From assembly GCA_019348575.1 (NCBI GenBank), contig JAHWJE010000025.1, positions 1-10,281 of the forward strand: a DNA stretch of 10,281 bases. The letters are read 5' to 3'. The notes under the pieces were generated by a model. The model was not told the origin of the DNA and did no database searches. It saw only the letters and a program-made list of their open reading frames with translations. This document shows positions 3-10,265 of the stretch, in pieces. This DNA comes from Actinomycetota bacterium (GTDB lineage: Bacteria > Actinomycetota > Thermoleophilia > Solirubrobacterales > Solirubrobacteraceae). The position numbers were made by a program, and so were the translations under genes. How positions within the stretch are numbered: position 1 is the stretch's first letter; every line of letters begins with the position of its first letter.

Positions 3-257
3 AAGCTGCTGCCCGCGCTCTACAACCTGGCCCACGAGGGCGCGCTGCCCGAGCGCTTCGGCCTGGTCGGCAGCGCCCGCACCGAGATGACCGACGACGA
101 GTTCGCCGAGATGGCGATCCAGTCCGTGCGCGAGTTCTCGCGCCGGCCGCCCGACGAGAAGGTGCTCGCCAAGCTGTTCGCCGACACCCGCTACGTGACC
201 GGCTCCTTCGACGACGACGAGGTCTACGCCGGCCTGAGCGACGCCCTCGACGAGCTC
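3..257 (+). pseudogene. zwf: Glucose-6-phosphate dehydrogenase N-terminal fragment
   Basis: The frame opens with [19 protein letters not shown]. In G6PDH this directly follows the NADP-binding GASGDLTxR loop, so the window starts about 25-30 residues into the protein. It continues with the family's R-x-E-MTDDEF segment, a helix with REFSRR, and YVTGSFDD followed by D-x-x-x-Y-x-x-L. G6PDH oxidises glucose 6-phosphate to 6-phosphogluconolactone at the entry to the pentose phosphate pathway and is normally about 450-510 residues. Only about 85 residues are here. The next expected block, leading to the GNRxFYLA segment, is absent and is replaced by oxidase sequence. The substrate-binding and C-terminal domains are missing, so this piece cannot be active. 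The right boundary is approximate because both families carry a similar L-D-E-A-type stretch. Confidence 0.75.
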
Positions 258-722
258 GACGAGGCGCTGGCGCCGCTCGGGCTCGTGTACCCCGTGTTCC
301 CCGGCGAGTACAGCGCCAGCATCGGTGGCAACGTCGCCACGAACGCCGGCGGCATGCGGGCCGTGAAGTACGGCGTCACCCGCCACCAGGTCCTCGGTGT
401 CGAAGCGGTGCTGCCCACGGGCGAGGTGATCCGCACCGGCGGCAAGCAGTACCGCGTCTCGGAGGGCCAGACCCTGCTGGTCGAGCGGCTGCCCGGCGAC
501 GCCGGCGCGACCGTGGACCTCCAGCCGCTGCTGTACGCCGGCGACGAGGCCGTCTTCGACGCCGACGGGCTCAAGCAGGTCTCAGTCACGGCGCGGATCG
601 TCGGTCACGAGCGCGGCGAGAAGCTGCGCGTGTTCAAGTTCAAGCCCAAGCGCGGCTACAAGCGGACCACCGGCCATCGCCAGGAGCTCACGCGCCTGGA
701 GATCACGGAAGTGAAGGGCTAA
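3..722 (+). CDS. rplU: Mosaic open frame ending in 50S ribosomal protein L21
   Basis: One uninterrupted frame runs from the window edge to the TAA at 720-722, with the first ATG at 87. It is not a normal gene. Its translation falls into three blocks: a glucose-6-phosphate dehydrogenase N-terminal piece (about 3-257), a GlcD-like FAD-oxidase piece (about 258-446) and L21 (about 426-722). Only L21 reaches a natural end, four bases before rpmA, where rplU is expected. L21 is a large-subunit protein that binds 23S rRNA and is normally about 100 residues; a protein read from ATG 87 would have 211. No proper rplU start (MYA- or similar) is present. The three blocks stay in frame because the joins fall in short stretches the parent genes probably share. 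I judge this a sequence chimera more likely than a working fusion. The L21 identification itself is secure. Confidence 0.75.
258..446 (+). pseudogene. GlcD-like FAD-linked oxidase fragment
   Basis: The segment reads [18 protein letters not shown], then [12 protein letters not shown], then [15 protein letters not shown] and [12 protein letters not shown]. This is the FAD-binding (PCMH-type) region of glycolate oxidase subunit GlcD and D-lactate dehydrogenase-like flavoproteins. [12 protein letters not shown] is the pyrophosphate-binding stretch, and [11 protein letters not shown] normally continues into a V-K-x-x-x-GYDL block. Only about 60 residues of a protein normally near 450-500 are present. 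The start of the FAD domain, the rest of it and the catalytic cap are all missing. At residue GGK the sequence switches to L21 (GGKQYRV). The family assignment is confident; which oxidase it came from cannot be told. It cannot act as an enzyme in this form. Confidence 0.75.
426..722 (+). other. rplU: L21 portion of the mosaic frame
   Basis: From GTG 426 the reading is [58 protein letters not shown] and the terminal [10 protein letters not shown]. This is the complete L21 fold except for about three N-terminal residues before VIRTGGK. The usual L21 start is Met-Tyr-Ala followed by an I/V-x-[10 protein letters not shown] strand. GTG 426 could in principle start a near-normal 98-residue L21, but no convincing Shine-Dalgarno sequence precedes it. 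The bases before it are read in frame as GlcD-type PTGE. The basic [10 protein letters not shown] loop that contacts 23S rRNA is intact. Confidence 0.8.
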
Positions 723-726
723 CGAG

Positions 727-987
727 ATGGCACACAAGAAGGGCCTCGGCTCCTCGCGCAACGGGCGCGACTCCAACGCGCAGCGCCTCGGCGTCAAGAC
801 GTTCGCCGGCCAGACGGTCTCCGGCGGCGAGATCATCGTGCGCCAGCGCGGCACGCGCTTTCGCCCCGGTGAGGGCGTCGGCATCGGCAAGGACGACACC
901 CTCTACGCGCGCTCGCCGGGCACCGTCGTGTTCGGGATGCAGCGCGGCAAGCGCGTCGTCTCGATCGCCCCGCCCGACGCCGAGTAG
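727..987 (+). CDS. rpmA: 50S ribosomal protein L27
   Basis: This 86-residue protein begins [20 protein letters not shown] and contains [39 protein letters not shown] and the terminal KRVVSIAPP, all diagnostic of L27. The flexible N-terminal tail of L27 reaches toward the peptidyl-transferase centre and helps place tRNA. There is no extra N-terminal extension of the kind cleaved in Firmicutes, so the tail is made mature. Length is typical (about 84-90). The start ATG lies four bases after the L21 stop, the usual rplU-rpmA arrangement, and implies co-translation. The next gene starts four bases after its stop. No anomaly in codon use or motif is seen. Confidence 0.98.
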
Positions 988-3881: not shown

Positions 3882-3890
3882 TCCCGCCCG

Positions 3891-5507
3891 ATGAGGCTTC
3901 GAACGATCGCACTCGCCGCGCTGCTGCTCCTCACGCTGTCCGTGCCCGCGGCCCAGGCGTCACCCGACATGGTGTCGGTGATGATGGACGACGACCAGCT
4001 GCTGTACCGCAGCGACAAGATCCGTGGCCGGACGCTCGTGCAGATGCGCAAGCTCGGGGTGGACGTCGTGCGTGCGACCGTCCTGTGGAAGACCGTCGCC
4101 GAGGGCGCGTCGCTGACGAACAGGGAGATCAGGCAGCTGAAGAGCGACAAGCTCCGCAAGCGCGCCCGCGCGCAGCGCGCCCGCTTCAGGCCCAGGAACC
4201 CGCGGACCTATCCCACGCGCAACTGGGACCGCTACGACAACCTCGTCAAGGACGCCGCCAAGTTCGGCATGCGCGTCTACTTCACCGTCACCGGGCCGGG
4301 CCCGTCCTACGCGCATCGCAAGGCGCCGGCGAGCCAGCGCCGCAACGCCGGGACGTACAAGCCGATCCCGACCCGCTTCAGAGACTTCGTCGAGGCCGTC
4401 GGCCGCCGCTACTCGGGCAGGACGCGTGACGAGAACGGCATCCGCCGCCCGCTGCCGCGCGTCTCACTGTGGTCGATCTGGAACGAGCCCAACCAGCCGG
4501 GCTGGCTCACGCCGCAGTACGAGAAGCGTGACGGCCAGGTCGTGCCGGCCGCGCCGGCGCTGTATCGCAAGCTCTACCACGCGGGCGTGGAGGGCCTCAA
4601 GCGTGCACGCCACACGGTGACCGAGGACGGGATCTTCATCGGCGAGACGGCGCCGCTGGGGTCCAGCCAGACCGGGCCGCGCAACGGGATGCGACCGGTT
4701 CCGTTCCTGCGCGAGCTGCTCTGCCTGGCGCCCGATGGCACGACCTACGCAGGCCCCGACGCGGCGCGCCGCGACTGCGACGACTTCGCGCGCAACGGCC
4801 CGCTGCAGGCGACCGCGTACGCGCACCATCCCTACACGAAGAAGGTCGCGCCGACGAAGGCGACGGCCAACCCCGACGAGATCACGATCGCCAACATCGG
4901 CACGCTCGGCCCGCTGCTGGACACGCTGGCGATCCAGTCCGGGGGCAAGATCGCGGGCGGCCTCCCGATCCTCCTGACGGAGTTCGGCTACGAGTCCAAC
5001 CCGCCCGACCCGCGCAACGGCATTCCCTATATGCGACAGGCGGAGTTCAACCAGCTCGGCGAGTTCCTCGCCTACAACGAGCCGCGCGTGCAGGCCATGA
5101 CGCATTTCCTGTTGCGCGACGTCGCGCCGCTCAAGCAGTACCCGAAGGGCTCGCGGCTGTACTGGTTCACATACCAGTCCGGCCTCGTCACCAACGGCGG
5201 GCGCTCCAAGCCCGCCGCCTTCGCCTACGCGCTGCCGTTCGTCGTGTTCCCGTCCGGCGCGGGTGTCACCGGCTTCTGGGGGCAGCTGCGCTTCCGGCCC
5301 AACGGCGCGCAGGACATCGCGGTCGTGATGTGGCGCCCGAACGCGAAGTCGCCGTGGCAGCAGATCGGCGAACCGGCGGCGACCTCGCCGCGCGGCTACT
5401 TCACGGGAACGGTCCCGACGCCCGGGCCGGGCGGCGAGTACCGCGCGGTCTACGTCAACCCGGAGAACGGCAAGATCACCAACTCCTCGCTGCCGACCAA
5501 GCTCTAG
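3891..5507 (+). CDS. Secreted clan-A-type glycoside hydrolase
   Basis: This is a 538-residue exported protein. A signal peptide covers residues 1-23 (MRLRT, hydrophobic core ALAALLLLTLSV, cleavage after AQA). A TIM-barrel catalytic domain follows to about 445, and a beta-rich C-terminal domain covers about 450-538. SIWNEPN (195-201) carries the likely acid/base E199. LLTEFGY (361-367) carries the likely nucleophile E364. HHPY at 312-315 is also typical of the clan. C278 and C296 are the only cysteines I see and could form a disulfide. Residues 78-108 are strikingly basic (RQLKSDKLRKRARAQRARFR). The substrate is unknown; cellulase-like (GH5/GH39-like) annotation is likely in databases. The gene sits alone between obgE and proB. 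An alternative GTG start at 3816 would give 563 residues; I prefer ATG 3891 because it gives a normal signal peptide. Confidence 0.85.
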   Translation: MRLRTIALAALLLLTLSVPAAQASPDMVSVMMDDDQLLYRSDKIRGRTLVQMRKLGVDVVRATVLWKTVAEGASLTNREIRQLKSDKLRKRARAQRARFRPRNPRTYPTRNWDRYDNLVKDAAKFGMRVYFTVTGPGPSYAHRKAPASQRRNAGTYKPIPTRFRDFVEAVGRRYSGRTRDENGIRRPLPRVSLWSIWNEPNQPGWLTPQYEKRDGQVVPAAPALYRKLYHAGVEGLKRARHTVTEDGIFIGETAPLGSSQTGPRNGMRPVPFLRELLCLAPDGTTYAGPDAARRDCDDFARNGPLQATAYAHHPYTKKVAPTKATANPDEITIANIGTLGPLLDTLAIQSGGKIAGGLPILLTEFGYESNPPDPRNGIPYMRQAEFNQLGEFLAYNEPRVQAMTHFLLRDVAPLKQYPKGSRLYWFTYQSGLVTNGGRSKPAAFAYALPFVVFPSGAGVTGFWGQLRFRPNGAQDIAVVMWRPNAKSPWQQIGEPAATSPRGYFTGTVPTPGPGGEYRAVYVNPENGKITNSSLPTKL

Positions 5508-9698: not shown

Positions 9699-9704
9699 AT
9701 CTTA
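9699..9704 (-). promoter_or_regulatory. Possible -10 element of tRNA-Ala (TAAGAT)
   Basis: On the minus strand TAAGAT lies 13 bases before the first base of the tRNA and matches TATAAT at four of six positions. Its TAA is also the stop codon of the coiled-coil gene. No clear -35 is visible, but upstream bases are constrained by coding. It could give the tRNA its own promoter. Confidence 0.4.
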
Positions 9705-10265
9705 GCGTCGCCTGCGCGGCATGAACTCCGGGACGTCGGGCTGCACCGAGGCCGCGCCGGGCGCCGGTGGCGGCCGGCCGTCGTGTACGGAGGGCGCCGC
9801 TCGATCCGGATCGGCGCGATCCAGCCGCGCCGACAGCTCGGAGTGCGCGTCGCGGACGTCGCGCAGCAGGCGCTCGGCGTTGACGCGCAGCGAGTCCGAC
9901 AGCTCGCGCAGGTGGCCGCTCAGCGTCTCGCCCTCGCGCAACACGTCGCGCGCGACGGCGCGCGCCTCGGCGATCAGCTCGCGCGCCCGCGCCTGTGCCT
10001 GATGGCGCGCCTCCAAGGCTGACTCGGCCGCCTCGCTGCGCAGCTCCTCGGCGGCCGCGACGGCCTCGGCGCGCAGCTCGTCGGCCTCCTCGTCGGCGGC
10101 CCGCACGCGCAGCTCCGCCGCGCGCTCGGCCTCCGCGATCCGCTCGGCGGCGCGTGCCTCGGCAGTGGCGCGCAGCTCCTCGGCCGCCCGCTCGGCGGCC
10201 TGCACGATCTGCTCGACGTGGCGCGCCGCGGACCCAGCACCGTCGGAAGCTCGCTGCTGCGCCAT
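9702..10265 (-). CDS. Ala/Glu/Arg-rich coiled-coil protein, DivIVA-like
   Basis: This 187-residue protein is almost all helix-forming from about residue 15 to 148, rich in Ala, Glu and Arg, with no Cys or Trp. Hydrophobic positions recur at 11-residue spacing: I20, L31, L64, L75, L97, V108 and L119, with EELR/DELR words at several. This suggests a hendecad coiled coil as in F-type ATPase b subunits or DivIVA-like scaffolds. A second motif (LREGETLSGHLRELSDSLR then NAERLLRDVR) lies at 109-138. A Pro/Ala linker (about 150-179) leads to the end PEFMPRRRR. There is no signal peptide or membrane helix, so it is probably a cytoplasmic scaffold. Function is not known; a role in polar growth or division is a guess from DivIVA resemblance. 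CTACCAT precedes the ATG by eight bases. Confidence 0.85.
   Translation of the reverse strand: MAQQRASDGAGSAARHVEQIVQAAERAAEELRATAEARAAERIAEAERAAELRVRAADEEADELRAEAVAAAEELRSEAAESALEARHQAQARARELIAEARAVARDVLREGETLSGHLRELSDSLRVNAERLLRDVRDAHSELSARLDRADPDRAAPSVHDGRPPPAPGAASVQPDVPEFMPRRRR

Follow-up and report, generated by a model that had tools for sequence, protein, structure and literature searches.

A zwf-glcD-rplU open frame at the end of a Solirubrobacteraceae contig is best read as a cross-class chimera

The open frame at 3..722 on the forward strand of the window (the whole stretch of DNA analysed, 10,281 bases, which is the entire contig, the database copy of the protein, P0001, coming from a contig of that length) is, with a probability of about 0.96, an artefact: a cross-class chimera with two joins at the 5' end of the contig, a figure that covers the amplification and the assembly routes jointly. 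The three-part protein that the frame seems to encode almost certainly does not exist: the first ~445 bases of the contig are pieces of two unrelated genes joined to a ribosomal protein gene. On sequence comparison, the chimera is best read as holding at least two source organisms. Its source is probably a metagenome, and we infer that it originated in vitro or in silico.

The frame, of 239 codons and as many aa, continues beyond the 5' limit of the window. Pfam matched G6PD_N to frame residues 1-87 (E 1.4e-14, profile positions 13-100 of 183), FAD_binding_4 to residues 82-146 (E 1.8e-16, profile positions 74-139 of 139) and Ribosomal_L21p to residues 142-237 (E 8.4e-30, profile positions 4-99 of 99). 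NCBIfam placed zwf, glcD and L21 models on the same three parts, with the zwf part extending to residue 87 or 88 and the FAD_binding_4/glcD match beginning at residue 82-84. Among these models only that for L21, TIGR00061, passed its curated cut-off, as is expected because the zwf and glcD pieces are fragments, and matches to solved structures agree with the assignment to three families. The original prediction, that three families share one stop-free frame and that both leading pieces are incomplete, was thus borne out: the G6PDH and GlcD domains each cover only part of their profiles. Since the window is the whole contig, the odd zwf/GlcD part sits at a contig end.

The two joins were placed by per-residue comparison with the listed relatives, comprising 119 GlcD proteins, 119 L21 proteins and the 113 of 119 zwf proteins that were placeable. 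The frame is zwf-like through residue 87 and GlcD-like from residue 82, locating join 1 at residues 82-87 (246..263, forward strand), where the codons for LDELDE fit both zwf and GlcD of the putative Acidimicrobiia type. It is GlcD-like through residue 148 and L21-like from residue 145, locating join 2 at residues 145-148 (435..446, forward strand), where ACCGGCGGCAAG, encoding TGGK, is common to GlcD and L21. Joins had been proposed at 240-280 and 420-450, and the comparison upheld and narrowed both intervals. No stop arises at the joins, as the two genes meeting at each shared word read it in one phase and as one motif.

Codon alignment gave a common word of ~9-18 nt or slightly more at join 1; it used ungapped alignments lying fully inside their loci, with up to seven displayed for each family. 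At join 2 the window has GTG ATC CGC ACC GGC GGC AAG against ATC GTC AAG ACC GGC GGC AAG in the L21 genes of close relatives, an exact identity of 12 nt. Lys precedes TGGKQY in all 38 loci in which the word was found (of 62), and the aligned residue before TGGK in the 119 listed L21 proteins is Lys in 115 and Arg in 4; a parent L21 with Arg there might extend the common word to ~17 nt. A longest-common-word test was made on the nearest relatives (4 zwf, 9 glcD and 6 rplU genes, giving 36 zwf x glcD and 54 glcD x rplU pairs). The longest common word lay at join 2 in 15 of the 54 pairs (10 exactly, 5 with one extra base) and elsewhere in 39; at join 1 it was found in 1 of the 36 pairs and elsewhere in 35, some of the words outside the joins being longer, up to 17 nt. 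Because 39 and 35 pairs have their longest word elsewhere, the join words are usable but not uniquely compelled join points. Just beyond join 2, at 459-461 (residue 153), the window has Ser; the aligned place is Glu in 117 of the 119 listed L21 proteins and Thr (73) or Ser (43) in GlcD. This residue may be a trace of a mixed consensus or a simple variant.

The glcD piece between the joins (264..434, forward strand), a portion of the FAD-binding domain, has a taxonomic affinity of its own. In 10 relative genomes its identity was at most 51%, or 61% when tblastn aligned a 56-residue core. Across 299 Thermoleophilia genomes it was matched in 237; the best match by E-value was 56% identical (E 3.6e-20), and the top identity among the matches listed was 62% over 55 residues. 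Among 396 genomes drawn from the phylum, 28 had a match with E no higher than 1e-20, the top one at 88% identity. In the protein collection, where the search admitted proteins of ~131-418 aa only and mostly left out full-length GlcDs, identity to other GlcD proteins reached 92% (119 matches listed besides the window's own). An ncbi organism name was attached to 13 of these 119, of which 12 are Acidimicrobiia, Acidimicrobiales, Microthrix or Microthrixaceae and one is 'Actinobacteria bacterium ATB1'; the best organism-named match among those listed, at 90% identity, is from Acidimicrobiales. We take Microthrix and Microthrixaceae to belong to Acidimicrobiia, which is a class separate from Thermoleophilia, the class holding Solirubrobacteraceae. 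From these identities, the glcD piece looks like one from another class, Acidimicrobiia-type, than the zwf and L21 pieces. An earlier gain of this GlcD by the clade was also considered and rejected, as it was not seen in the 299 genomes of class Thermoleophilia.

The zwf piece (3..263, forward strand), belonging to the NAD-binding domain of glucose-6-phosphate dehydrogenase and cut by the contig 5' end, showed aa identities of 88%, 85%, 81% and 76% to relative genomes G001, G003, G004 and G002, respectively. Eight of its listed matches carry an ncbi organism name, seven being Solirubrobacteraceae or Solirubrobacterales and one 'bacterium' only. In 8 of 10 relative genomes the zwf and rplU matches are on different contigs, in one they are 1.7 Mb apart, and in the remaining one a zwf match was not found. 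The search also turned up P0241, a protein on a 905-base ENA contig in which the zwf piece is matched twice in tandem (P0241 residues 52-120 and 149-206), and which seems to be a further chimera of this kind.

The third part (447..722, forward strand) extends rplU from after the TGGK motif to the stop, at aa identities of 86% (G001 and G002) and 87% (G003) to the relatives' rplU. The L21 domain is nearly whole and has no start codon of its own: native L21 begins with MPYAIVK, MAYAIVK or MYAIVK in close relatives, and in the window GlcD codons stand in place of this start and of the five or six codons after it. The zwf and rplU pieces are both predicted to be of Solirubrobacteraceae type, an assignment that does not establish a common species. 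Downstream, the right end is a normal rplU-rpmA junction, as had been claimed: rpmA (L27, Ribosomal_L27), the usual neighbour of rplU, lies at 727..987 on the forward strand, and the L001 rpmA is in the same position with 96.5% identity. A start codon is present at 992, just after rpmA.

Upstream of rplU-rpmA, a region to which the original prediction had also pointed, the window departs from its relatives. L21 is present in 41 of the 62 related loci, 39 of the 41 having more than 300 nt of upstream sequence, and 36 of these 41 have an RNase E/G match whose end is at most 700 nt upstream of L21 (family membership was verified for L001 and L003). In locus L048 it ends 1058 nt upstream, and in 4 of the 41, two of which have less than 150 nt upstream, it was not found there. 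A significant match to RNase E/G is absent from the window, and at E 1e-8 neither zwf nor GlcD is matched in any of the 62 related loci, each spanning at most ~13 kb.

The 62 related loci were collected by an Obg scan, the closest being Solirubrobacteraceae MAGs at 84, 82 and 82% aa identity, and 10 of them were taken into the gene-order comparison. Ten genes of the window, from rpmA through UDG, are arranged as in L001 with 70-97% aa identity, the common order being rpmA, SDR, obg, proB, proA, nadD, rsfS and UDG, and the body of the contig looks ordinary on account of this match. A 540-codon frame at 3885-5504 without a Pfam or NCBIfam match lies between obg and proB, as it does in 6 of the 10 compared loci (62-85% aa identity). 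L001 stops before the last gene of the window, a possible 187-aa gene on the reverse strand (9702-10265) that adjoins tRNA-Ala and has no family match; its sole match among the 10 compared loci, several of which end before that point, is in L046 at 40% identity.

The fusion as such was found once, in the protein collection, as its own copy P0001. Besides P0001, none of the best 120 of 6092 protein matches covers more than 41% of the fusion, and within those 120 a second domain is present in P0001 only. In 146 family genomes, of which 133 match at E 1e-25, no place covering the whole fusion is among the matches listed (sorted by E-value); the longest run-on spans among them are 1-123, 114-237, 115-237 and 119-238, with 52-58% identity and, in two cases, an internal stop. 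Parts of the fusion were matched by 413 plasmid records, none covering 80% of it in one place, and the 15 plasmid matches listed are GlcD-like run-ons into L21 coordinates (~30-40% identity) or L21 (41-44%). A real fusion family was rejected as a candidate, no second example being present among the protein and family-genome matches listed.

For the preferred reading, a chimera made in vitro or in silico, we propose the following course. The trustworthy contig would begin inside the rplU gene of a member of Solirubrobacteraceae; ahead of the TGGK codons there would be a switch to an Acidimicrobiia-type glcD at the ~12-nt shared word, and ~170-190 nt further upstream, at the short LDELDE word, a second switch to a Solirubrobacteraceae-type zwf. 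Our first choice is that incompletely extended strands switched template during amplification and that the product was picked up at a thinly covered contig end; PCR also yields template-switching chimeras. The next possibility is that the join was made by the assembler alone, a de Bruijn graph or greedy assembler joining reads of three loci at their shared words without any chimeric molecule. We give this purely computational route a substantial but minority share of the artefact reading. In its favour, the word at join 1 could be up to 18 nt or slightly more, whereas that at join 2, 12 nt with close relatives and ~17 nt at best, stands against it, the usual assembler k being 21 or more. Because the identity at join 2 (~12-17 nt) is below usual assembly k-mers, amplification template switching is slightly favoured, and with so short an exact identity plain k-mer collapse has no direct support. 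The computational route also draws on simulated metagenomes, in which, according to the available text of one study, interspecies chimeric contigs are noticeable (PMC3100316).

Against an artefact count the many pairs whose longest common word lies outside the joins, the predominance of inverted chimeras reported for MDA (PMC1855051), and the fact that both joins keep the sense strand and the frame, which an artefact need not do. The same clean, in-frame junctions would suit a real genome rearrangement, in which foreign glcD DNA and a zwf fragment recombined before rplU and left a disrupted locus in a living cell, and the short shared words could serve here as well, being what microhomology-mediated recombination uses. 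Such an event would nevertheless need two joins within ~190 nt, a partner from another class and the loss of both the rplU start and the RNase E/G neighbour, all at a site that happens to be a contig end and with no second case among the matches listed; we regard it as very unlikely. More improbable again, to the point of being nearly negligible, is a real fusion gene, in which the essential ribosomal protein L21 would carry an N-terminal extension of ~140 residues or more made from zwf/G6PDH and a laterally acquired Acidimicrobiia-type glcD fragment. The frame is indeed open over 239 aa, and extensions of L21 do occur: among the organelle bL21 chains of the structure library, some are longer, at 165-270 residues, and match L21 in a central or later portion. 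Against this, neither extension piece is a whole domain and no homologue is present among the matches listed.

The original prediction of a chimera formed at short shared sequences is therefore supported by the foreign-class GlcD, the joins in shared words, the lack of a second fusion among the matches listed and the missing rplU neighbour. Its attribution to assembly or amplification across three loci also stands, with two refinements: the pieces appear not to come all from one genome, and the short identity at join 2 somewhat favours a chimeric molecule. The value of frame 3-722 lies in caution only. Its product already has a three-domain entry in the protein collection (P0001), which could mislead gene-fusion searches, and a differing taxonomic source of one piece, together with joins in shared words, can expose such chimeras without reads.

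Compared with known arrangements, the window resembles the rng-rplU-rpmA-obg region of Solirubrobacteraceae from rpmA to UDG, in the order of L001; that region has an RNase E/G gene and the rplU start where the window instead has the zwf and glcD pieces. Interspecies chimeric metagenome contigs, as described in the available part of one study (PMC3100316), resemble the window in that a single contig holds parts of different organisms. Many partners in those contigs belong together at species, genus or family level, with similarity suggested as the main cause, whereas the parts of the window would come from different classes and share very short identity. For MDA, the accessible portion of a further study (PMC1855051) reports that 85% of 475 chimeras were inverted, and that those joining sequences more than 10 kb apart were nearly equally direct (58) and inverted (69), with complementary bases in 27.6% of the direct and 34.8% of the inverted ones. 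As far as that text goes, MDA chimeras are mostly inverted and formed within one molecule, whereas both joins of the window are direct and at least one probably lies between organisms. The same source gives complementary words of 2-21 nt at more than 70% of junctions (PMC1855051), and in this respect amplification chimeras are like the window, in which unrelated sequences are joined at short complementary words.
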